Of a stretch of 64,000 nucleotides of DNA, positions 53,486-64,000 are shown piece by piece. How positions within the stretch are numbered: the first letter of the stretch is position 1; each line of letters opens with the position of its first letter. The notes beneath the pieces were generated by a model, which worked only from the letters and a program-made list of their open reading frames with translations, searched no databases and was not told the origin of the DNA. Origin of the DNA: Succinispira mobilis DSM 6222 (GTDB lineage Bacteria > Bacillota > Negativicutes > Acidaminococcales > Succinispiraceae); contig NZ_KB913028.1 in assembly GCF_000384135.1 (NCBI RefSeq), forward strand, positions 430,351 through 494,350, written 5' to 3'. The position numbers were made by a program, and so were the translations under genes.

Positions 53486-54925
53486 ATGGCGTTAAAAGTA
53501 TATAATACCTTGAGTAAACAAAAAGAAGTTTTTGAGAGTGTTCAACCAGGCAAGGTAAATATGTATGTTTGTGGAGTTACTCCTTATAATCATCCGCATA
53601 TTGGTAATGCTCGCCCCTTTGTTACTTGGGATGTATTTCGCAGATATTTAGAATTTTTGGGCTATGATGTTACGCACGTACAAAATTTTACCGATGTTGA
53701 TGATAAAATAATTAATAAAGCTAATGAACAAAAAAGTAGCTGGGATAAAGTATCGGGTGAATATATTCAAGCTTATTTTGAAGTTATGGATAAATTAAAT
53801 GTAAAACGGGCTCATGTTTATCCTAAGGTATCTACGCATATGCAAGAAATAATTGCTATGGTAGCTACCTTAATCGAAAAAGGTTTTGCCTATGAACTTG
53901 AGGGTGATGTATATTTTAAGGTAGAAGCTTTTGCGGATTATGGTAAACTTAGTGGTCGCAGCTTAGAAGATATGCAAGCGGGAGCGCGGGTTGATGTTGA
54001 TACGCGCAAACAAAACCCGATGGATTTTGCGCTGTGGAAAAGTGCTAAGCCTGGCGAACCATCTTGGTCTAGCCCTTGGGGAGCTGGTCGACCTGGTTGG
54101 CATATTGAATGTTCCGCAATGTCCACAAAATATTTTGGTGGTAGCTTTGATTTTCATGGCGGGGGTAGTGATTTGATTTTCCCACATCATGAAAATGAGA
54201 TTGCACAATCCGAGGCTTGTACCGGTTGTGTGCCGTTTGTGAAATATTGGTTACATAACGGTTTTATAACAGTAAATGAAGAAAAAATGTCTAAGTCCTT
54301 AGGTAATTTCTTTTTAGTGCTTGATATTTTGCAACATTACCGTCCGGAAGTAGTGCGTTTCTTTATTTTGTCTACGCATTATCGTAGCCCGCTAGATTTT
54401 AGTGATGCCCGCTTGACAGAAAGCACTAAAAGTTTAGAACGGTTGGAAATCGCGCAAGGCAATTTGCTGGAGTTACAAACTTTAACTGGAGATTTCTTAA
54501 GCACTGAGGCACTGACTTATGAAAAAATTACCGCGGAATTGCGCCGTGAATTTTTAGCGGCCATGGATGATGATTTTAATACGGCTTTGGCAATTAGCCA
54601 TTTGTTTGCTTTAGCGCGAGAAATTAATAAATACAAGCAAGAAGTTGAGAATGGGAAGCCGGTTGATGGTAAAGTGGTAGATCTATTGGCTAAAACTTGG
54701 CAACTCATGACAAGTATTATTGGGGTGTTAGAACACAACACTACGACTGTAGCCACTGAAGAACAAGATGCTTTAGGTAAATTAGTAGAAAAAATGATTG
54801 CTTGCCGGGCTCAAGCAAAATTAGAGAAAAACTATGCACAGGCAGATGCTATTCGTGATACCTTGCAGGCCGCAGGCGTTATTTTGGAAGATACTCGTCA
54901 AGGAGTACGGTGGAAAAAAGCGTGA
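53486..54925 (+). CDS. cysS: Cysteine--tRNA ligase
   Basis: CysS charges tRNA-Cys. The 479-residue enzyme has VCGVTPYNHPHIGNARPFV near 25, the zinc ligands Cys28, WHIECSAMS and HHENEIAQSEAC, and KMSKSLGNF near 268. ATG 53486 follows GGAGGTGC; a TTG one codon earlier is less likely. Its stop overlaps the GTG start of mrnC by 16 bases. Confidence 0.96.
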   Translation: MALKVYNTLSKQKEVFESVQPGKVNMYVCGVTPYNHPHIGNARPFVTWDVFRRYLEFLGYDVTHVQNFTDVDDKIINKANEQKSSWDKVSGEYIQAYFEVMDKLNVKRAHVYPKVSTHMQEIIAMVATLIEKGFAYELEGDVYFKVEAFADYGKLSGRSLEDMQAGARVDVDTRKQNPMDFALWKSAKPGEPSWSSPWGAGRPGWHIECSAMSTKYFGGSFDFHGGGSDLIFPHHENEIAQSEACTGCVPFVKYWLHNGFITVNEEKMSKSLGNFFLVLDILQHYRPEVVRFFILSTHYRSPLDFSDARLTESTKSLERLEIAQGNLLELQTLTGDFLSTEALTYEKITAELRREFLAAMDDDFNTALAISHLFALAREINKYKQEVENGKPVDGKVVDLLAKTWQLMTSIIGVLEHNTTTVATEEQDALGKLVEKMIACRAQAKLEKNYAQADAIRDTLQAAGVILEDTRQGVRWKKA

Positions 54926-55407
54926 AATTCGAACAATATAAAACTTTAAAACAGCAACTACTTACAACTATGGATTTACCACAAGTGGCTGCAGAACAAC
55001 AAATTGCGACGATGCATCCTTTAGTGTTGGCGTATATTGGTGATGCTGTTTTTGCGTTGTATGTAAGGTTGCGGTTACTCGAAAGAGAAAAAAACAAGGT
55101 ACGGGTTTTGCATGACGTAGGTGCTAAGATGGTTTCGGCCGTAATGCAATCACATGCTTTTGATAAACTCGCAGAAACGCTTACGGAGACCGAACAGGCT
55201 ATAGCTAGAAGGGGTCGCAATGCCAAATCTACTGTGCCTAAAAGCGCCTCAGTGCGTGAGTATCGCCAAAGTACAGCGTTGGAAGCATTGTTTGGCTACT
55301 TGTTTTTGCAAGCTGAGTATGAACGCTTAGACGAATTATTTGCACAAGTGTTTAGCGCAATTGCTGAAAAAATGGTTGCCGACGAACAAGAAAAAAATAA
55401 GAAATAA
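54910..55407 (+). CDS. mrnC: Mini-ribonuclease III
   Basis: MrnC matures 23S rRNA ends without a double-stranded RNA-binding domain. The 165-residue protein has the RNase III core with HPLVLAYIGDAVFALYVR near 36 and STALEALFGYLFL near 122, holding the acidic metal site. The GTG start lies within cysS, so it depends on translational coupling. It is closed by a terminator. Confidence 0.92.
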   Translation: MEKSVKFEQYKTLKQQLLTTMDLPQVAAEQQIATMHPLVLAYIGDAVFALYVRLRLLEREKNKVRVLHDVGAKMVSAVMQSHAFDKLAETLTETEQAIARRGRNAKSTVPKSASVREYRQSTALEALFGYLFLQAEYERLDELFAQVFSAIAEKMVADEQEKNKK

Positions 55408-55418
55408 GAAATAAGAAG

Positions 55419-55463
55419 AATACTCGTTGTATATGCACGGCATTATAGAACGAGTATTTTTTT
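55419..55463 (+). terminator. Intrinsic terminator after mrnC
   Basis: AATACTCGTT pairs with AACGAGTATT, then TTTTTT. Confidence 0.85.
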
Positions 55464-55479
55464 AGGAAACGGTAGCTGT

Positions 55480-55507
55480 TTGCAGAATTGTGCGGCTGTT
55501 ATATAAT
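55480..55507 (+). promoter_or_regulatory. Sigma-A promoter of thyX
   Basis: TTGCAG (55480-55485), a 16-base spacer, consensus TATAAT (55502-55507), 49 bp before the start codon. Confidence 0.75.
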
Positions 55508-55555
55508 AGATAGCGGTGATTGTGTTTTACGATAATACCTAACGGAGGTAAATTC

Positions 55556-56887
55556 ATGAAAATAGAAAACTTTGAGGCAACTGGTTTAGAAAAACTAGCT
55601 AAATGGTTGCAAGCTAATAACATCAACAGCTTAAGTGAGCCTGATTTAAGAGAACTACTGAAAACAGTTAATATATCTTTTGTAATGGAAGAATTGAATC
55701 GTTTGCAAAGTACTTTGGTTTGCGAGTTGAAAGACTCCTATGTACAGCAAAGCCAGCGTTATGTTACCGTGACAGACCAAGGCTACGTATTGCCACAGTT
55801 AGAAGCAACAGATCGCCTTAATGCGGAAAATTTAATTAAAAGAACTTTGGCTTTATATCAACAGATGTCACAAATGAAACAGGGAGAATTTAAAGGACGC
55901 CCTAAACTAGAGAATTATGAATATGGTATTCCAATTGAAGATGCACGATATATTTTGCCCTTGGCGGTAAAAACTAATGTTTGTGTAGCTTTGGCTGGCG
56001 ATAAATTGATAGATTTCGTGAATTTACTAAATAAACCTGATTATCGGTTAATTTTTGCGGATTTGTTAGGGCAATTACTCAAGCTTTTGCCCTCTAGTAT
56101 TGCGGAATTAGTGCAGCAACATTATCAACAAGTTGATAATAATTTAGTGGGCCAATATTATGCGGCTTATTTGCAGTTGCTTAGCCCAGAAAACAATTTA
56201 ATATTGTTGGAGACCTTTTCTGATCTTGATATGAAGGTTGGTTTTGGAGCTTTAACTAGTACAATGCAACAGCCACCGAGTGCAGCTATTACTAGATGGG
56301 GTGCGGAAGCTCCGCAGAAAGCTCAAGGTGTAGTTGAGCGAGTTTTAAGTTATGGTCATGATAGCATTGCTGAACAAGCGCGAGTTACTGTAGGAATGAT
56401 GTGTAGCTTGGTTACTTACCATCAGCAACTACGACACCGTTTAACTGCGAATTATCGGGAACCGTTAGAAAGTTTAGTAACAGATTTACAACGCGCCGTA
56501 AAAATACCGTCAACAATTGCAACTTCGCCTTTTGCCGAGGAATTTTTGCAATTAGTGGCCGAAATAAAAACTTTTAGAGCTCAGCTTCTGCAAAAATATG
56601 ATAAGGCAACGGCACTGTTTTTCTTGCTTAATTGTGAACAACTGAAAATAGTGATGTCTACCAACGCACGGGCGGATATTTCAATGTTGGCGGATCGAAC
56701 TTGTCGGAATGCGCAGTGGGAAATTAGAGAATTGGCTATAAAAAAATTAATTTGTTTGCGGAAACTGTCGCCAGTTTTGTACGAAAAAGCTTTGCCTAGT
56801 TGTGTTTGGGGAAAATGTCGTGAAGGTAAGCTAACTTGTGGGCAGCAACTTCAGGTTAGGGAACAATTTAGTAAATTATTAGACTGA
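55556..56887 (+). CDS. thyX: FAD-dependent thymidylate synthase, two-module form
   Basis: ThyX makes dTMP using FAD. At 443 residues it is about twice the usual ThyX (200-250) and has two ThyX-like halves. The first (about 50-170) keeps SQRYV (66-70) and IEDARYILPLAVKTN but its RHR place reads CEL. The second (about 240-405) keeps YGHDSIAEQARVTVG, QLRHRL (Arg293-His294-Arg295) and NAQWEIREL, but lacks the Ser-x-Arg-Tyr part (ANYREP). The halves thus carry complementary parts of the RHRxxSxNExSxRY motif. Whether it is active in this form is inference. ATG 55556 has GGAGG upstream. Confidence 0.85.
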   Translation: MKIENFEATGLEKLAKWLQANNINSLSEPDLRELLKTVNISFVMEELNRLQSTLVCELKDSYVQQSQRYVTVTDQGYVLPQLEATDRLNAENLIKRTLALYQQMSQMKQGEFKGRPKLENYEYGIPIEDARYILPLAVKTNVCVALAGDKLIDFVNLLNKPDYRLIFADLLGQLLKLLPSSIAELVQQHYQQVDNNLVGQYYAAYLQLLSPENNLILLETFSDLDMKVGFGALTSTMQQPPSAAITRWGAEAPQKAQGVVERVLSYGHDSIAEQARVTVGMMCSLVTYHQQLRHRLTANYREPLESLVTDLQRAVKIPSTIATSPFAEEFLQLVAEIKTFRAQLLQKYDKATALFFLLNCEQLKIVMSTNARADISMLADRTCRNAQWEIRELAIKKLICLRKLSPVLYEKALPSCVWGKCREGKLTCGQQLQVREQFSKLLD

Positions 56888-56915
56888 TAAATTTTACAAA
56901 TAGGGAAGTGAAAAG

Positions 56916-57659
56916 ATGAGTGAGTTTTTGGCTGGTCGTAACGCCGTATTAGAAGCTTTAAAAAGCGAACGTAGCATTAATAAATTGTTTGTCCAACAAG
57001 GGCAAAGTACTGGGAGTATTCGAGAACTGATTGCTTTAGCGCGGGATAAAAAAGTAATGATTGAAGAAGTGAGTGCTAGTAAACTCAATGCTTTAGTGAA
57101 AGATGTCAAACATCAAGGGGTAGTAGCGACAGTTGCGCCAGTAAATTATGCAGAGTTAGAAGATGTTTTAGCGTTAGCGAAAGCGAAAAACCAAGCGCCG
57201 TTTTTGATTTTGCTAGATGAGTTACAAGATCCCCAAAATGTTGGGGCGATTTTACGGACAGCCAATATTGCGGGTGCGCATGGGGTATTAATTACTAAAC
57301 GGCGGAGTTGTCCTTTGACAGGCACAGTGGCTAAAATTTCCGCTGGGGCAATTGAGCATACACCAGTGGTACAGATTGGCAATGTGGCTCAAACTTTAGA
57401 GCAATTGCAAAAACAGGGTTTGTGGGTAGTTGGCGCTGATATGGATGGAGCAGCAGATTATTTTGCTAGTGATCTTACGGGCCCGATTGTTCTGGTTATT
57501 GGGGGCGAAGGTAAAGGGTTAGGTCGGTTAGTTAAAGAAAAATGTGATATCTTAGTGAAAATTCCAATGTTCGGTCAAATTACTTCTTTAAATGCCTCGG
57601 TAGCTTGCGGAATTTTGGCCTTTGATATTGTTCGACAACGCCTTTTGGCTAATAAGTAG
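56916..57659 (+). CDS. rlmB: 23S rRNA (guanosine-2'-O-)-methyltransferase RlmB
   Basis: The 247-residue SpoU-family methyltransferase has the L30e-like N-domain (LAGRNAVLEALKS) and the knotted SPOUT domain with LLDELQDPQNVGAILRTAN near 97, GGEGKGLGRLVKEKCD near 195 and the end motif SLNASVACGILAFDIVRQR. It methylates G2251 in E. coli numbering. It lies 6 bp upstream of the NYN gene. Confidence 0.93.
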   Translation: MSEFLAGRNAVLEALKSERSINKLFVQQGQSTGSIRELIALARDKKVMIEEVSASKLNALVKDVKHQGVVATVAPVNYAELEDVLALAKAKNQAPFLILLDELQDPQNVGAILRTANIAGAHGVLITKRRSCPLTGTVAKISAGAIEHTPVVQIGNVAQTLEQLQKQGLWVVGADMDGAADYFASDLTGPIVLVIGGEGKGLGRLVKEKCDILVKIPMFGQITSLNASVACGILAFDIVRQRLLANK

Positions 57660-57665
57660 GGTGTA

Positions 57666-58196
57666 ATGTTAGGAGCGGAGTACTTGTTTATTGATGGTTA
57701 TAACGTCATCAATAGCTGGAAACAATTACAAGAGTTGCAAATTAAAAGCTTAGAGCATGCGCGGGAAAAATTAATTACAATGATGGCGAGTTATGTTTCG
57801 TTTAAGGGTTTTAAATCGACTATAGTTTTTGATGGTCAAGGGATAGTGTTACCTGGAGTAGCGCCAGTGCAAAAAATAAGTCAACAGCTACAAGTTGCAT
57901 TTACGCAAGATGGTTTAACAGCGGATTCCTATATTGAAAAAGAGGTCTATGAGCTTTTGAAGTTGAAAAAAGTTGTGTTTGTAGTAACCAATGATTGGGC
58001 GGAGCAACAGAATATTTTAGGAAGTGGTGCTTTTCGATTTTCCGTGCGAGAACTTAAAGAAGATTATGCGCGCGCTCAACTAGATATTAAACAACGAGCG
58101 TCTGGTAAACATGGTTTAGCGCGGAATGAACTAGCGGGACGGATTAACAGTGGTGTACTTGCGAAACTAGAACAAATGCGTCGTGATAAGAACTAG
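57666..58196 (+). CDS. NYN domain protein (YacP-like)
   Basis: This 176-residue protein has the NYN nuclease core: EYLFIDGYNVINSW near the start, TIVFDG near 56, and FVVTNDWAEQQ near 100. YacP-type proteins are predicted ribonucleases, called Rae1 in Bacillus where it cleaves mRNA on the ribosome. It is between rlmB and sigH as in other Firmicutes. The ATG lies 6 bp after rlmB with a weak ribosome site. Confidence 0.85.
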   Translation: MLGAEYLFIDGYNVINSWKQLQELQIKSLEHAREKLITMMASYVSFKGFKSTIVFDGQGIVLPGVAPVQKISQQLQVAFTQDGLTADSYIEKEVYELLKLKKVVFVVTNDWAEQQNILGSGAFRFSVRELKEDYARAQLDIKQRASGKHGLARNELAGRINSGVLAKLEQMRRDKN

Positions 58197-58206
58197 GAAA
58201 TAAGAC

Positions 58207-58235
58207 TTGTAATAACTAAGGCGCTATTATATAAT
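58207..58235 (+). promoter_or_regulatory. Sigma-A promoter of sigH
   Basis: TTGTAA (58207-58212), a 17-base spacer, consensus TATAAT (58230-58235), 46 bp before the start. Confidence 0.8.
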
Positions 58236-58280
58236 CTAGTAACAAGATAAAGAATGTCGGGTTTGGTTGGAGGCGATCTA

Positions 58281-58994
58281 ATGCAAAATGAATTTCAACG
58301 AGAAAGTTTTGCTAGCTTTGAAGATATGACAGACGAGGAAATTGTCTTAGATGCAAGGCTAAATGATAATATAATTGCCCAAGAGTACCTACTGAGCAAA
58401 TATAAAAATTTTGTGCGGGCTAAAGCACGAAGTTATTTTTTAATTGGTGCAGAAAAAGAAGATATTGTGCAAGAAGGCATGATTGGTTTATATAAAGCAA
58501 TTCGAGATTTTAAAAGCGAAAAGCTATCTTCTTTTCGGGCTTTTGCGGAACTTTGTGTAACGCGTCAGATAATTACAGCGGTTAAAACGGCGACTCGTCA
58601 AAAACATATTCCGTTAAATTCATATATTTCTCTGAATAAGCCAATCTATGAAGAAGAATCAGATCGGACTTTGATGGACGTGGTAACAAATACACGCGAA
58701 TCAGATCCAGAGGAAATTTTAATTAATCAGGAAGATTTTTTAGATATCGAAGATAAGATGAATCAGGTTTTGAGTGATTTAGAGTGGCAAGTATTAATTA
58801 GTTATTTAGATGGCAAATCGTATCAAGAAATCTCTTTGGAGCTTAATCGACATGCAAAATCGATTGATAATGCTTTGCAACGTGTGAAAAAGAAAATTGA
58901 GAAATTTGTAGTTGGACAAGATAGTGCGAATAAATTAGATTTGCATGGTGCTTGTAAGGGTATTGTAGGTATGAAGAAAAAAGCTAGCGGTTAA
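58281..58994 (+). CDS. sigH: RNA polymerase sigma factor SigH
   Basis: This 237-residue sigma-70 factor of the SigH type has region 2 (YKNFVRAKARSYFLIGAEKE, DIVQEGMIGLYKAIRDF) and region 4 near 170-220 (DLEWQVLISYLDGKSYQEIS, KSIDNALQRVKKKI). SigH drives post-exponential genes in Bacillus. ATG 58281 has GGAGG; an earlier ATG at 58254 has no ribosome site. The C-terminal 20 residues (LDLHGACKGIVGMKKKAS) extend beyond region 4. A terminator follows. Confidence 0.92.
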   Translation: MQNEFQRESFASFEDMTDEEIVLDARLNDNIIAQEYLLSKYKNFVRAKARSYFLIGAEKEDIVQEGMIGLYKAIRDFKSEKLSSFRAFAELCVTRQIITAVKTATRQKHIPLNSYISLNKPIYEEESDRTLMDVVTNTRESDPEEILINQEDFLDIEDKMNQVLSDLEWQVLISYLDGKSYQEISLELNRHAKSIDNALQRVKKKIEKFVVGQDSANKLDLHGACKGIVGMKKKASG

Positions 58995-59005
58995 AAAAAT
59001 AATAG

Positions 59006-59047
59006 AAATGCGAAGATGGCAAATTTGGCTGTTTTCGCATTTTTTTT
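59006..59047 (+). terminator. Intrinsic terminator after sigH
   Basis: AAATGCGAA pairs with TTCGCATTT across an 18-base loop with a small inner stem, then a long T-run. Confidence 0.85.
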
Positions 59048-59081
59048 GTTGCAGCCTATAGGTTTGAAAAATAAGTTATAA

Positions 59082-59240
59082 TCAGTTAGACAGTCCCGCG
59101 AAAGAGAAGAACGAATTTCTGAGAAATATATTCAAAAAATAAAAAAAGAAATGTTGGGTCCGCTAGAGTATGGTTTGGATATTTTTGGAGGAAAGTGGAA
59201 GTCGCGGTTTTGCTTAAGCCTGCAGACACATCTTTGGTGA
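59082..59240 (+). pseudogene. Remnant of an HxlR-family transcription regulator
   Basis: In one frame, ATG 59151 opens MLGPLEYGLDIFGGKWKSRF, which is a close match to the HxlR signature (CP-x-EY-x-LD-x-x-GGKWK). The frame stops at TGA 59238-59240; past it, the same frame reads NLRLNELL, like the RFNELRR element, then another stop. The frame is open upstream to 59082. I read this as a decayed gene broken by stop codons. HxlR proteins are aldehyde or redox-responsive repressors. A short functional peptide is unlikely. Confidence 0.6.
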
Positions 59241-59310
59241 AAAGCTTGTAATTTACGCTTAAATGAATTATTATAAGCAAAGTGTGTTAATATTCCCGAG
59301 ATTTATAATT

Positions 59311-59341
59311 AAACAAGGCGTTTGGTGGAAACGCCTTGTTT
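59311..59341. repeat. Perfect 13-bp hairpin, possible terminator
   Basis: AAACAAGGCGTTT and AAACGCCTTGTTT with a GGTGG loop. T-runs on both sides are short, so terminator activity is uncertain. Confidence 0.55.
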
Positions 59342-59421
59342 AAATTAAGTATATGAACTAAGTGCTTAGGTAATTAAAAATTTATTCTTGCTTTTTGGTT
59401 TAAACAAAGGTGACTATTTAT

Positions 59422-59465
59422 AACTGGATTAAGCGGTTTTATTGCTTAATCCAGTTTGCGTTTTA
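59422..59465 (+). terminator. Perfect 13-bp hairpin, likely terminator
   Basis: AACTGGATTAAGC (59422-59434) and GCTTAATCCAGTT (59444-59456) with a 9-base loop, followed by TGCGTTTT. Confidence 0.6.
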
Positions 59466-59613
59466 GTGCAAATTATTAGCACAGCGCCTTTAGGGTGGAA
59501 AATATTTTGTAGTTAATTTTGAAAAATTAAAAGGAGTTTTAACACTATCGTCGAATTACTTAATTAAATAACTAAGGCTGTAAAGCTGAAATTTAAGTAA
59601 GGGGATGAGTGCA

Positions 59614-60081
59614 ATGGCTAATTTAAAAGAAGATTTAGTGTCATGTGTAAAACAACTATCTGGTGTAAAAGAAAAGCTTGTGATAGTAACTGGTAAACCA
59701 GGCAGTGGCAAAAGTCAAGTATTGCGTGATTTAGCAGGAACTCAGCGGTGGCGGTATGTAGATTGTCGTGATTTGGTAAGCGTACATGATTTATACGGTG
59801 TATTACCGACTGAGAAAAATGCTAAAGCTGTAGAAGCAATGCAAAGTATTTTAAATAATTATAATGCTGATGTTTTAATGTTAGACCGAATCCAAACCTT
59901 ATTTAACCCAGAATTAGGAATTGATGCTTTACAAGTAATTAAAAAAGTCAGTGAAGAAAAACCGTTGATTGTTGCTTGGCCAGGATATTATGAAAACGAA
60001 CAATTGAATTTTAAAAAGGAACATAGTAATCAAATAATAAGTTATAATGTGCAGGGAGTGCAAACATTCTCTTTGGACTAG
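59614..60081 (+). CDS. brxF: Orphan BrxF-like P-loop protein
   Basis: The 155-residue protein has Walker A GKPGSGKS (27-34), a Walker-B-like NADVLMLDRIQTLFNPEL near 90-107, and IVAWPGYYENEQLNF near 125-139. This matches the BrxF family of type 3 BREX phage-defence systems as I recall it. BrxF is normally encoded with brxC, pglZ and pglX genes; none is in the window. It could act in regulation or be a remnant or a related core protein. ATG 59614 has AAGGGG 9 bases upstream, better than ATG 59605. pfkA follows 14 bp after the stop. Confidence 0.65.
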   Translation: MANLKEDLVSCVKQLSGVKEKLVIVTGKPGSGKSQVLRDLAGTQRWRYVDCRDLVSVHDLYGVLPTEKNAKAVEAMQSILNNYNADVLMLDRIQTLFNPELGIDALQVIKKVSEEKPLIVAWPGYYENEQLNFKKEHSNQIISYNVQGVQTFSLD

Positions 60082-60095
60082 AAATGAGGGATAAA

Positions 60096-61184
60096 ATGGG
60101 AGAAAAGGAAAGTGTAGCAATTTTAACAGGAGGAGGAGATTGCCCAGGCTTAAATGCGGTGATTCGCGCAATTGTTACGAGTGCTTTGCAAGCCGGTTTA
60201 AATATTTATGGGATTCGCGATGGTTTTGGCGGCTTGATTGAGGATAAATTTAAATTGTTACAATTGGAAGATGTTGCGGATATCTTGGCTCGGGGTGGAA
60301 CAATCTTAGGAACTACTAATCGAGATAATCCTTTTCATTATGCTGTGCATACAGCTAAGGGTATTGTTTTTGAAGATCGACATCAAGTTGTTATAGAAAA
60401 TTTGCGTAAGCACAATATTAAAATGTTGTTCACGGTCGGCGGCGATGGTAGCTTGAAGATTGCCTCCGAACTAGCAAAAGTTGGGGTGCAAGTAATTGCC
60501 GTACCGAAAACCATTGATAATGATATCAGTGGTACGGAACGAACTTTTGGCTTTGATACAGCAATGAGTGTTGCGGCGGAAGCGCTAGATAGATTAAAAA
60601 CTACAGCGGATTCTCATCATAGGGTGATGGTCTTAGAAGTTATGGGCCGTTATGCAGGCTGGATTGCTTTGCATGCGGGCGTTGCCGGCGGAGCGGATTG
60701 TATTTTAATTCCGGAGATACCTTTTGAACGCGAGAAGGTTTTTGCGGCAATCGAACAACGCCGTCGAGCTGGCAAAAAATCAAGTCTGGTTATTGTAGCT
60801 GAAGGGGCAACAGAAGTAGGAGGAGAACTGACTGTAGCTCGTTTGGTGGAAGATAGTTTTGAGAAAATTCGTCTAGGCGGAGTGGGTAATAAGGTTGCGG
60901 AGATGATTGAGCAGGCCTTGAAAATTGAAAGTCGCTGTACGGTTTTAGGCTATTTGCAAAGAGGGGGAACGCCTACGCCTTATGATCGAGTTTTGGCAAC
61001 TAGATATGGGGTGGCCGCTTTTGAAGCCTATCAGCAAGGCAAAACCAATGTTTTGGTGGCTTTACGCGATGATGCCATAGTAACTGTGCCAATTGATTGT
61101 GTGGCCGATAAACCTCGGTTTGTGGATATTGAGGGTGAATTGGTACGCTTTGCGAGAAAACTAGGGATTTGCTTAGGCGATTAG
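60096..61184 (+). CDS. pfkA: 6-Phosphofructokinase
   Basis: PfkA phosphorylates fructose 6-phosphate to the 1,6-bisphosphate. The 362-residue protein has ILTGGGDCPGLNAVIRA at the start, VGGDGS near 111 and VPKTIDNDI near 134, then MGRYAGWIALHAG. The Gly in GGDGS points to ATP as donor, while Lys in PKTIDND is usual in pyrophosphate or group III enzymes. It is thus a mixed group III type. ATG 60096 follows GAGGG; an ATG four codons earlier lacks a site. A terminator follows. Confidence 0.92.
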   Translation: MGEKESVAILTGGGDCPGLNAVIRAIVTSALQAGLNIYGIRDGFGGLIEDKFKLLQLEDVADILARGGTILGTTNRDNPFHYAVHTAKGIVFEDRHQVVIENLRKHNIKMLFTVGGDGSLKIASELAKVGVQVIAVPKTIDNDISGTERTFGFDTAMSVAAEALDRLKTTADSHHRVMVLEVMGRYAGWIALHAGVAGGADCILIPEIPFEREKVFAAIEQRRRAGKKSSLVIVAEGATEVGGELTVARLVEDSFEKIRLGGVGNKVAEMIEQALKIESRCTVLGYLQRGGTPTPYDRVLATRYGVAAFEAYQQGKTNVLVALRDDAIVTVPIDCVADKPRFVDIEGELVRFARKLGICLGD

Positions 61185-61202
61185 TGTATAGTTTAAATGC
61201 TG

Positions 61203-61242
61203 AAAAGCTAATTTTAAGCTTTGCTTGAAATTAGCTTTTTTT
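61203..61242 (+). terminator. Intrinsic terminator after pfkA
   Basis: AAAAGCTAATTTTAAGC pairs with GCTTGAAATTAGCTTTT (one G-T pair) around TTT, then a T-run. Confidence 0.92.
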
Positions 61243-61276
61243 ATGTGCTAAAAATGCTGGAGTTAAGAAGCTGACG

Positions 61277-61324
61277 ATAATCTAAAACTAGAAGTTGATT
61301 GTAAAGCAACTAGTTTTAGATTAT
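61277..61324. repeat. Perfect 15-bp inverted repeat upstream of the diguanylate cyclase gene
   Basis: ATAATCTAAAACTAG (61277-61291) and CTAGTTTTAGATTAT (61310-61324) with an 18-base loop. Its right end touches the -35 element. There is no clear T-run. Confidence 0.7.
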
Positions 61325-61352
61325 TGTGGACAAATGTTCTATTTGATATAAT
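61324..61352 (+). promoter_or_regulatory. Sigma-A promoter of the PilJ-PAS-GGDEF gene
   Basis: TTGTGG (61324-61329), a 17-base spacer ending in TGA, TATAAT (61347-61352). Confidence 0.8.
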
Positions 61353-61422
61353 ATTAAGAAAATACTAAAATTAGTGGCGGACTTTGTCAGCGGAAAAATT
61401 TGTTTAAAAGGAGGGGAACACG

Positions 61423-62958
61423 GTGCGGCTAGGCAATCGAAAAATGATTGTAACAATGTTAAAACAACGCTATATTTTAGCTTTGGGCATTATTGTAATA
61501 ATGTTAATCTTAGGTGAAGTTATGTTGCAACGCGCCCTGAAATTTGAACAAGATGATTCGCGGGTGATTAATATTGCTGGACGGCAACGAATGTTGAGCC
61601 AGAAAATTAATAAAGCTGCTCTGGGGTTATACTTTAGTAGTGATAGTGCTCAGCGGGAGATGTATCATTATGAAATATATACAGCTTTGAGCTTGTGGCA
61701 ACAATCGCATCAAGGACTACAACAAGGCAATAAAAGTATGGGTTTACCAGGTGATAACAGCTCTAAAGTGCAAAAAATGTTTGCGCTTATTGAACCTAAT
61801 TATCAAATTATGGTTGAGACGGCTCAGAATATTTTAGAACTAGGTCCAGAATATAGTTTAGAAAAACATCGCCAGCTATTTGCTTATTTGCAGATTATGC
61901 AAGCGAACGAAGGTGACTTTTTGCGGGGGATGGATGCCATTGTTTTTCAATACGACCAAGAATCACGTGATAAAATTGGCGAAATAAGGTCGTTAGAATG
62001 TTTAATATTATTGGTGGCCTTGATTACCGTTTGTTTGGAATTTATCTTCATTTTCCGACCAACTTGGGAGCAGGTCGGTTTAGCTTTACGAGAGGTAGAA
62101 ATTAGTCGGAGAAATTTATTTAAAATTTTTGAAACGGCTCCAGCAGCGATGTTGTTTGTCGATATTGATGATTGTAAAATTGTTAGGTTGAACAATCTAG
62201 CGAAAAATTTACTGAAAAATGCGCTAGCGGCAAGCCAAGATATGAATTTTGCGCATACTTTAAATTTATCTCCAGAGCAATTTTCCCAGCTGTGGGAAAA
62301 GATAATTGCTGGTGAAATTTTAGAAAATGTGGAAGTTGAATTGTTGGATAAGGAACACCGTGGCAGAGTGGCCTTGCTTTCGGCTAATATAATTAGTTAT
62401 GAAGAAAAATATGGTGTACTTATAGGCTTAGTAGAGATAACGCCGCAAAAAGAAGCTGAGGAGATTTTGCGGAAATATGCCAGTATTGATGATATGACAG
62501 GCTTGATGAACAAAAGGTCGGGGCTGAATTTTTTGGAAAATGCTTTGGAAAATCGCAGTAGCGAGCCTTTGAGCGTGGCCTTTATTGATGTTGACGGTCT
62601 TAAATATGTAAATGATACTTATGGGCATGAGGAAGGCGATGCCTACATTCGTCAAATTGCGAAAGTTATTCGGGGCAATTTGGGGAGCCATGATGTGGTT
62701 TTTCGTTATGGTGGCGATGAATTTGTTTTGATTTTGGATAATTGTGCGCGAGCAATAGCTGAAGTAGTTTTACAGCGTATTGTGCAAAAACTAGAACGCT
62801 TAAATGCACAAAGTACTAAACCTTATGCTTGGCATATAAGCTATGGGATTGCTGAATATGGGGAAATTACCAATGAAGATCTTAAAAGTATTTTGGCCCG
62901 TGCTGACCAAGAAATGTATCTGCAAAAAAGACAAAGAAAACAGGCCCAGAAAAAATAA
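61423..62958 (+). CDS. Membrane diguanylate cyclase with PilJ/NarX-like sensor and PAS domain
   Basis: The 511-residue protein has TM1 (about 17-37), an extracytoplasmic PilJ/NarX-type domain (VINIAGRQRMLSQKI at 48-62), TM2 (about 192-212), a PAS domain (about 230-345) and a GGDEF domain with intact GGDEF at 430-434 and VDGLKYVNDTYGH. It should make cyclic di-GMP in response to an outside signal. The RxxD inhibitory site is missing (GSHD before GGDEF). The GTG start has AAGGAGGGG upstream. It is a single-gene unit, upstream of uppP. Confidence 0.9.
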   Translation: MRLGNRKMIVTMLKQRYILALGIIVIMLILGEVMLQRALKFEQDDSRVINIAGRQRMLSQKINKAALGLYFSSDSAQREMYHYEIYTALSLWQQSHQGLQQGNKSMGLPGDNSSKVQKMFALIEPNYQIMVETAQNILELGPEYSLEKHRQLFAYLQIMQANEGDFLRGMDAIVFQYDQESRDKIGEIRSLECLILLVALITVCLEFIFIFRPTWEQVGLALREVEISRRNLFKIFETAPAAMLFVDIDDCKIVRLNNLAKNLLKNALAASQDMNFAHTLNLSPEQFSQLWEKIIAGEILENVEVELLDKEHRGRVALLSANIISYEEKYGVLIGLVEITPQKEAEEILRKYASIDDMTGLMNKRSGLNFLENALENRSSEPLSVAFIDVDGLKYVNDTYGHEEGDAYIRQIAKVIRGNLGSHDVVFRYGGDEFVLILDNCARAIAEVVLQRIVQKLERLNAQSTKPYAWHISYGIAEYGEITNEDLKSILARADQEMYLQKRQRKQAQKK

Positions 62959-63003
62959 GTAATAGTTAATGGAGGAGTATTTAAGGAAAAATGCGGGAAG
63001 CGC

Positions 63004-63032
63004 TTGTGAATATTCGCTATCTAAAGTATAAT
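63004..63032 (+). promoter_or_regulatory. Sigma-A promoter of uppP
   Basis: TTGTGA (63004-63009), a 17-base spacer, TATAAT (63027-63032), 35 bp before the start. Confidence 0.8.
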
Positions 63033-63066
63033 TAAATAGTTGTTTTTTAAAATTGGGGGTATGAAA

Positions 63067-63873
63067 ATGAGTGACACTTTGATAGCGATAATAATCGGGA
63101 TTGTAGAAGGATTAACAGAATTTATTCCTGTGTCTTCGACGGGGCATATGATTTTGGTGGGAAACTTAATCGGCTATAATGATGAGGCGGCAAGTGTTTT
63201 TGAGGTTTTCATACAATTAGGAGCGATTTTGGCGGTAATATTTTTTTACAAAGATAAGTTTCAGCGGTTTTTTACAGCCGAGGCTTGGGATAAAAATAAT
63301 AGTTTGAGTGTTTGGCATGTAGCAGCGGGGATTGTACCGGTAATGGGAATCGGGTATTTGCTACATAAACCCATAAAAATGTATTTGTTTTCTCCGTATA
63401 CAGTAATCATTGGCTTAATTGCAGGCGGGGTAATGATGCTGTTGGCAGAGCGCTTTGGGGGAAGAAAACATACAGAAGATGTTATGCAAATTACTTTAAA
63501 GCAAGCATTTTTTGTCGGCTTATTTCAAATTTTTGCGTTATGGCCAGGTTTTTCTCGCTCGGGCTCTACGATTTCTGGAGCGCTGTTTATGGGGATTTCG
63601 CGCAAGGCAGCGGCTGATTATTCTTTTATAATTGCAGTACCGTTGATGTTTGTGGCTTGTATTTATGATTTACTAAAGAGTATGCATGCTCTTTCGGGAA
63701 ATGATTTATATATGATTAGTGTAGGGTTTGTGGTAGCGTTTTTAGTATCTTATGTAGCCATAGTTTGGTTTTTAAGATTTTTAAATAAATCCAGTTTGGC
63801 AGCCTTTGCCTACTATCGTTTTGCTTTAGCGGCTTTATCTTACTGGTATTTCACTTGCAAGTTAATAAAATAG
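63067..63873 (+). CDS. uppP: Undecaprenyl-diphosphatase
   Basis: UppP (BacA) regenerates undecaprenyl phosphate, the lipid carrier for peptidoglycan and surface glycans, from its diphosphate. The 268-residue membrane protein has GIVEGLTEFIPVSSTGH near 10-26 and the second motif PGFSRSGSTISG near 160-171, with about eight membrane helices. ATG 63067 has GGGGG 7 bases upstream; ATG 63061 is too close. It ends with a terminator. Its lipid is used by the glycan cassette genes at the other end of the window. Confidence 0.95.
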   Translation: MSDTLIAIIIGIVEGLTEFIPVSSTGHMILVGNLIGYNDEAASVFEVFIQLGAILAVIFFYKDKFQRFFTAEAWDKNNSLSVWHVAAGIVPVMGIGYLLHKPIKMYLFSPYTVIIGLIAGGVMMLLAERFGGRKHTEDVMQITLKQAFFVGLFQIFALWPGFSRSGSTISGALFMGISRKAAADYSFIIAVPLMFVACIYDLLKSMHALSGNDLYMISVGFVVAFLVSYVAIVWFLRFLNKSSLAAFAYYRFALAALSYWYFTCKLIK

Positions 63874-63883
63874 TTTTGCTAAT

Positions 63884-63933
63884 AATATGTTGTAATGTCT
63901 AGTTTTGCCACTAAGCATTACAACATATTTTCA
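63884..63933 (+). terminator. Intrinsic terminator after uppP
   Basis: A perfect 14-bp stem (AATATGTTGTAATG and CATTACAACATATT), then TTCAT. Confidence 0.8.
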
Positions 63934-64000
63934 TATAATTGCTGGTGAATAATTAGCGGTAATTATTATGATAAAAGTTGAAAAAATTCATAGGATGTGC

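Follow-up and report, generated by a model that had tools for sequence, protein, structure and literature searches.

The window analysed here is a stretch of 64,000 nucleotides of the Succinispira mobilis DSM 6222 genome. Between the genes for a sigma factor and pfkA, it carries a small gene for a standalone P-loop protein of the BrxF family (Table 1). The names sigH and uppP are putative, the latter being assigned from the sequence. The brxF-like gene occurs in a single copy in this genome, which consists of one contig of 2,085,243 bases. We listed the open reading frames of positions 54000-64000. They run from cysS to uppP, the longest has 511 aa, and they include neither a pglX-type methylase nor a BrxHII helicase. 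For the rest of the window, the absence of BREX genes rests on the genome searches described below.

Table 1. Features of the brxF-like gene and its surroundings (positions of the window).
Feature	Position	Strand	Remarks
sigH-type sigma factor	58254..58994	+	Pfam Sigma70_r2 and r4_2; upstream anchor of the conserved site
Strong hairpin, then T-rich sequence	59311..59341	+	RNA fold of 59095-59470
Second hairpin, 16 pairs	59422..59456	+	Terminator-like scan and fold
Standalone BrxF-family P-loop protein	59614..60081	+	155 aa ORF; NF033453 96.2 bits
Walker A GKPGSGKS	59692..59715	+	Walker A kept in 56/57 core copies
Walker B-like strand VLMLD	59872..59886	+	Asp in 57/57 core copies; next residue mostly R/N/G
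AWPGYYEN segment	59974..59997	+	Core and BREX copies both conserve W and G
pfkA	60096..61184	+	Pfam PFK 356.4 bits; alternative ATG 60084
uppP, undecaprenyl-diphosphatase	63040..63873	+	Cluster c1; downstream anchor

With a second in-frame ATG, at 59605, the brxF-like ORF would be three residues longer. We consider 59614 the better start, because AAGGGG (by eye, similar to a ribosome-binding site) lies about 9 nt upstream and most relatives have 153-155 aa. The protein presents the Walker A motif and the AWPGYYEN segment that an earlier, sequence-only reading had pointed out. The Walker B motif in the same claim is only Walker B-like. Its Asp is in place, but it precedes an Arg (MLDR) and not a Glu or Asp.

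The stop codon of the brxF-like gene and the likely start of pfkA (60096) are 14 nt apart. Considering this spacing and the hairpin-bearing gap of 600 bp after sigH, both genes probably share one transcript. Within the gap, positions 59095-59470 fold far better than shuffled sequences (z -5.25), mainly due to the two hairpins. The first one is a possible terminator. In that case, the brxF-like gene and pfkA would form their own transcription unit. This hairpin is missing from the list of the terminator-like scan, which found 2 candidates against 2.1 expected in shuffles. The Rfam scan of the window gave no family over gathering.

We assigned the protein to its family with profile searches. NCBIfam BREX_3_BrxF (NF033453) matches it with 96.2 bits (cut-off 50, E 1.4e-27, positions 2-147 of 149), and PADLOC BrxF with 84.3 bits. 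The Pfam scan of the protein gave no family over cut-off. A better match to another P-loop family was not found, since the next NCBIfam families stay below 20 bits. The standalone copies of the class Negativicutes are here named core copies. NF033453 matches 38/38 core members. Likewise, the profile of the core (38 rows) aligns with that of the BREX copies (21 rows) in hhalign with 100% probability (E 2e-40, 159 columns). By these profiles, the window protein is a BrxF-family member and a full-length homologue of the BrxF encoded beside brxC. The NCBIfam label "BREX-3 protein BrxF" names the family correctly but not the system.

The genome-wide search for BREX partners covered BrxC- and PglZ-type families. 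It found no DUF6079 (BREX-3 BrxC), BrxC_BrxD or PglZ over cut-off in the genome of the window. A hidden BREX island elsewhere in this genome that uses the brxF-like gene is ruled out for these three families. The sole weak PglZ match (20 bits) falls in a 507-aa ORF adjoining enolase, which we take, from its sequence, to be phosphoglycerate mutase. Among the 57 core stretches, no PglX match was found, and none of BrxC, PglX, PglZ or BrxA appeared near the core copies read. The proposal of a BrxF-family protein outside any BREX system is therefore confirmed for the families searched. The word orphan, however, understates the situation. Although no BREX genes lie alongside, the standalone form is the rule in the order of the window, the Acidaminococcales.

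In this order, NF033453 is over cut-off in 55/63 genomes, mostly once. Considering the good-quality genomes, the family is present in 39/41, and it covers 19/21 genera. DUF6079 passes its cut-off in 2/63 genomes of the order, and one of these is a partial match of 34 bits. In the Negativicutes, 122/380 genomes carry the family over cut-off. The other 258/380 have no match over cut-off, so the class can do without the brxF-like gene. Of 398 genomes sampled evenly across the phylum Bacillota, 61 are over cut-off, and the family is never over cut-off in 14 control genomes. Bacillota and these 14 controls make up the whole-genome searches.

A profile built from core copies has its strong matches in the same class families as NF033453. 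In a large family (f20), its matches are weak (E 6e-6 or worse), except the BREX copy of one genome (G234). No match appears among the genomes listed for family f7. Two members of a small-genome genus of the window's order (G042 and G040; places L226 and L227) lack the brxF-like gene. Their SigH is strongly diverged (43-44% identity), and one match has an internal stop.

We read the surroundings of 60/125 class matches and 40/68 phylum matches over cut-off, chosen by hand to span families. Four of the 68 phylum matches belong to class genomes. Of the 40 phylum places, 38 were analysed, as our own profile missed two (L166 and L167). The BrxC references for this comparison come from the three BREX places of the class. 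In the class, 57/60 places show no BrxC in the stretch read. The three remaining ones (L085, L088 and L095) are BREX-3 places; at L085, the neighbours of brxF are DUF6079, a DNA methylase and PglZ.

The core gene lies downstream of sigH on the same strand in 36/57 class places. Many of these show the segment cysS-mrnC-thyX-rlmB-yacP-sigH. In 20/57, it follows a conserved gene named c12 (19 by tblastn; L115 by clustering), and one copy lies at a contig edge. Downstream of the core gene, pfkA is found in 24/57, then nudix and yetF, and uppP is found in 43/57 at more than 70% coverage. The c12 cluster has 19 members (for example, L109:7359-8705). They mostly have 390-475 aa and a signal-like start, and in families f32-f35 they immediately precede the core gene. 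The Pfam scan of one c12 member gave no match. In one genome (G097; L087, 164-3062), two phosphofructokinase-type genes follow the core copy in a row.

The order sigH-brxF-pfkA is kept in 20/20 places read in the window's order, the window's own included. The conserved brxF-pfkA pair that the sequence-only reading asked about is then real, but the pfkA neighbour is not specific. We examined 14 hand-chosen genomes lacking the core gene, and the profile found nothing around their sigH. In 8/14, sigH is directly followed by pfkA, which indicates that the core gene was gained or lost alone. Of the other 6/14, one has small unassigned ORFs and then yetF-uppP, and five are rearranged. The same 8/14 weaken a functional link to pfkA as an explanation. 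Because related lineages lack it cleanly, the gene seems useful but dispensable.

The rest of the Bacillota presents another picture than the class. BrxC is found at 30/38 analysed places, with its midpoint 1.2-2.3 kb downstream, and 7/38 match no BrxC, PglX, PglZ or BrxA reference. One of these seven (L158) has a helicase-like gene directly upstream. At another place (L180), a BrxA-like match is the sole BREX match beside brxF. The mark "sigH" at L172 corresponds to a different sigma factor of 506 aa.

Several places inform about BREX-3 islands themselves. Two genomes (G088 and, in the window's order, G037) carry the core gene and, apart from it, a BREX-3 island that includes a brxF of its own. 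The G037 island (G037:C7:94971-105456) is the only clear case of BREX-3 that the window's order yielded. Its brxF match is partial and a TAG lies within brxC, so this island may be decaying. In L148 (406-1902, minus strand), the brxF frame and the end of a helicase are fused, apparently as what remains of a BREX-3 island that collapsed. In a non-negativicute genome (G498; L162, 4967-14217), a BREX-3 island brxF-brxC-pglX appears shortly after sigH, separated from it by an HTH gene and a PIN-like gene (by eye). This island arrived independently, because its brxF groups with the BREX copies.

The conservation of the nucleotide site differs between core and BREX copies. Walker A is kept in 56/57 core copies, and L087 is the only core copy read without it. 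Seven copies of other Bacillota that also stand alone (the second clade, described below) keep it in 7/7. Compared with them, GK[ST] is found in 12/33 BREX-embedded copies and the strict pattern in 6/33. Six of these 33 rows have less than 140 aa, and the chosen start may cut the P-loop; without them, GK[ST] is found in 12/27. The Asp at the Walker B position is invariant in the core (57/57 against 19/33 in BREX). An Arg four residues after the P-loop Ser is present in 57/57 core copies against 2/33 BREX copies. The residue after the Asp in the core is R (23), N (16), G (14), S (2), H (1) or D (1). A Glu after the Asp occurs in no group, and an Asp there in 1/57 core and 6/33 BREX copies. In the AWPGYYEN segment, the W is conserved in 57/57 core and 28/33 BREX copies, and the G in 56/57 (one row is cut) and 33/33.

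These differences suggest that the nucleotide site is often dispensable inside BREX and constrained in the standalone branch. We consider this contrast the main functional clue. Nevertheless, the BREX copies of Roseomonas and Leisingera also have GKS, so the state of the P-loop is an imperfect divider of core and BREX.

We made two trees with the BrxF proteins. The full tree includes proteins of at least 130 aa (94/98 kept). The thinned tree has 60 rows, plasmid BREX copies included, with the core set reduced to 27 and L180 counted as BREX; 14 rows that were long, eroded or short were taken out, including two core copies (L087 and L102). In the 94-protein tree, 56 core copies form one clade (99/96), which largely tracks family labels. 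A second clade (99/96) unites the seven standalone copies from outside the core. The thinned tree keeps both, the core clade with 97/99 (27 rows) and the second clade with 99/97. Four long-branched BREX rows fall on the standalone side of the 94-protein tree with weak support. In the thinned tree, three plasmid BREX rows are on that side: two alphaproteobacterial ones and a Klebsiella copy, the latter long-branched and next to the core clade. A thinned tree with the core and the second clade constrained together was not rejected (p-AU 0.194). The tree is unrooted and would allow transfer between BREX and core in either direction.

The second clade resembles the core. It has no BREX match nearby, an intact Walker A, and it is one clade. 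On the other hand, it occupies other chromosomal places and is 30% identical to the core in the profile alignment. Its members are L152:4240, L153:8466, L154:8638, L155:8778, L158:8680, L164:3133 and L186:8503. A strong profile match is present in 6/8 genomes of one order.

Purifying selection on the closest core pairs is strong: the six with dS below 1 gave dN/dS values of 0.015, 0.022, 0.054, 0.054, 0.066 and 0.068. The distances among core copies correlate with those of UppP (Mantel r 0.56, 43 rows, 0/999 permutations as high), and weakly with those of SigH (r 0.18, 36 rows, 27/999 permutations as high). On the SigH tree, which has poor support and long branches, the presence of the gene needs 7 gain or loss changes, 2 of them forced by well-supported branches. 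Because the core copies form a single clade, one gain with several losses is the simplest reading. Taken together, the core copies are apparently vertically inherited. A mobile spread of the core gene was set aside. In viral contigs, no relative was found with two single-protein queries or with the BREX profile, and the 11 viral matches of the core profile lie mainly in the P-loop half. The plasmid matches are BREX-linked or generic, apart from the unannotated L212.

The structure model is weak. AlphaFold2, from a two-row alignment, gave pLDDT 66 and pTM 0.60. In the Foldseek search of this weak model, the best E was 2.8e-3, with none at or below 0.001, and BrxB of structure 9zll ranked 13th (E 0.011). 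Ordered by Z, the structural neighbours of the weak model are led by nucleotide kinases (best Z 6.7), above BrxB. By sequence, the solved relatives gave P-loop-level matches only. What this model may tell about the fold is limited to the P-loop.

Compared with known systems, type 3 BREX BrxF (NF033453) is the closest, since it shares with the window protein the full-length family, the size, the W-x-G strand and the LF segment. Unlike it, the window gene has no BrxC, PglX or PglZ adjoining and is placed in a conserved housekeeping locus; the core copies have a nearly always intact Walker A and show signs of vertical inheritance. The accessible part of PMC12839542 presents BrxF as a BREX-locus STAND protein that is inactive, and a standalone BrxF branch was not found in that part. 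Nor did the titles and first lines of abstracts of the open-access literature searched reveal a standalone or housekeeping branch.

A weaker likeness leads to BrxB of type 1 BREX (PF08747; structure 9zll). PF08747 bridges to the window residues 70-135 with 20.6 bits (cut-off 26.8), and it matches 14/38 core members at E up to 0.1 (best 4.9e-4). The model shares the strand order of BrxB and BrxF as given in the accessible part of PMC12839542, where strand 4 leads into antiparallel extras before the last strand. According to the parts available of PMC12839542 and PMC13326643, BrxB is without Walker motifs and has PglZ and BrxC as partners. For these partners (PglZ and DUF6079/BrxC_BrxD), the window genome presents no match over cut-off.

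The accessible part of PMC10164562 places BrxF in the DnaA/Hda/ORC-type AAA+ clade. In agreement, the Hda model weakly matches 28/38 core members (E up to 0.1); with the window copy, it reaches 15 bits against a cut-off of 194.8. Unlike DnaA/Hda/ORC proteins, the window protein, with 155 aa, has no room for a lid or a DNA-binding domain.

The BrxF family consists of small AAA+/STAND-like P-loop proteins. We consider it quite probable that its non-BREX, vertically inherited branch serves a partner outside BREX, as a switch or adaptor that binds nucleotide. The standalone protein would bind nucleotide via its P-loop, with the usual catalytic Walker B Glu presumably absent. Because of this missing Glu, a switch or adaptor would be the most likely function. 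Most likely, it would be a small adaptor that senses ATP through its P-loop and whose docking on a larger partner is gated in this way. The analogy is with BrxB of BREX-1. In the part of PMC13326643 that could be consulted, BrxB bridges BrxC and PglZ and is a proposed regulator of BrxC assembly. As the genome has no BrxC or PglZ match, the partner of the standalone protein would be other than these two.

How this branch originated admits more than one answer. First, an ancient BREX-3 brxF could have been captured by an early negativicute core genome and acquired a new role, an exaptation that we find as easy to believe as to doubt. BREX-3 is taxonomically broad and includes many Bacillota. DUF6079 lies beside brxF on plasmids of Alphaproteobacteria and Enterococcus, and a Klebsiella plasmid has a BrxC-like ORF (by eye). 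Moreover, among the Bacillota and 14 control genomes searched, standalone clades turned up in Negativicutes and a few other Bacillota only. A BREX island can land near sigH, as in L162, and the GKS-bearing alphaproteobacterial BREX copies branch on the standalone side (99/91). However, in the unrooted tree, the core and the second clade placed together would equally fit an older standalone lineage.

The opposite direction is clearly the less probable of the two, and we mention it tentatively. Here, the standalone form with an intact P-loop would be the older one, and BREX would have recruited BrxF (perhaps BrxB), with the P-loop later often eroded. The sequence-only reading proposed something similar, an ancestor-like core protein. 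Its proposal is possible: an unbroken P-loop and a clade of its own agree with it, but the unrooted tree equally allows an old capture from BREX. The Walker A counts of the standalone and BREX copies given above, the existence of two standalone clades and the weak BrxB bridge in 14/38 core members (the window copy being below cut-off) point the same way. Against it, the known distribution is narrow, and none of the 14 control genomes has a match over cut-off. In addition, some BREX copies are also P-loop-intact, so conservation alone gives no direction.

A bolder version is rather unlikely. It would make the core gene a surviving cellular lineage of an ORC/DnaA-clade NTPase, the source of BREX BrxF and BrxB. 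This lineage would still regulate a large AAA+ or a replication or cell-envelope partner in a nucleotide-dependent manner.

That the protein is a small-molecule or nucleotide kinase merely resembling BrxF is improbable. Its best non-BrxF structural and profile neighbours include adenylate, shikimate, gluconate and polynucleotide kinases. Nevertheless, by sequence these kinases align mostly with the P-loop half, and by structure they share no more than a common arrangement (Z below 8). The profile match with BREX BrxF, which spans the full length, exceeds them by far.

Finally, the other option of the sequence-only reading, a relic that would be the last gene left of a decayed BREX-3 island, is hardly credible: such islands do decay (the L148 helicase fusion, L180 with only a BrxA-like match) and can sit shortly after sigH (L162), but the 56 core copies are one clade at conserved places with dN/dS of 0.015-0.068 in the closest pairs, 55/63 genomes of the order are over cut-off, Walker A is better kept in the core than in BREX copies, and the L162 brxF groups with BREX and not with the core clade. 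The distribution, the selection and the motif retention all contradict a recent relic.

The nucleotide-binding switch or adaptor with a non-BREX partner is then the reading that we prefer. What seems to be new is a standalone branch of the known BrxF family that is widely conserved, keeps its P-loop intact and is apparently inherited vertically. BrxF and BrxB are among the least understood parts of BREX, and a branch free of BREX with an intact P-loop is a simple system for asking what the fold does. It also bears on the direction in which core and defence genes exchange parts. Finally, the NF033453 label does not imply BREX. With 57/60 over-cut-off places read in the class showing no BrxC, the counts of defence systems based on this single gene would be inflated across the class.
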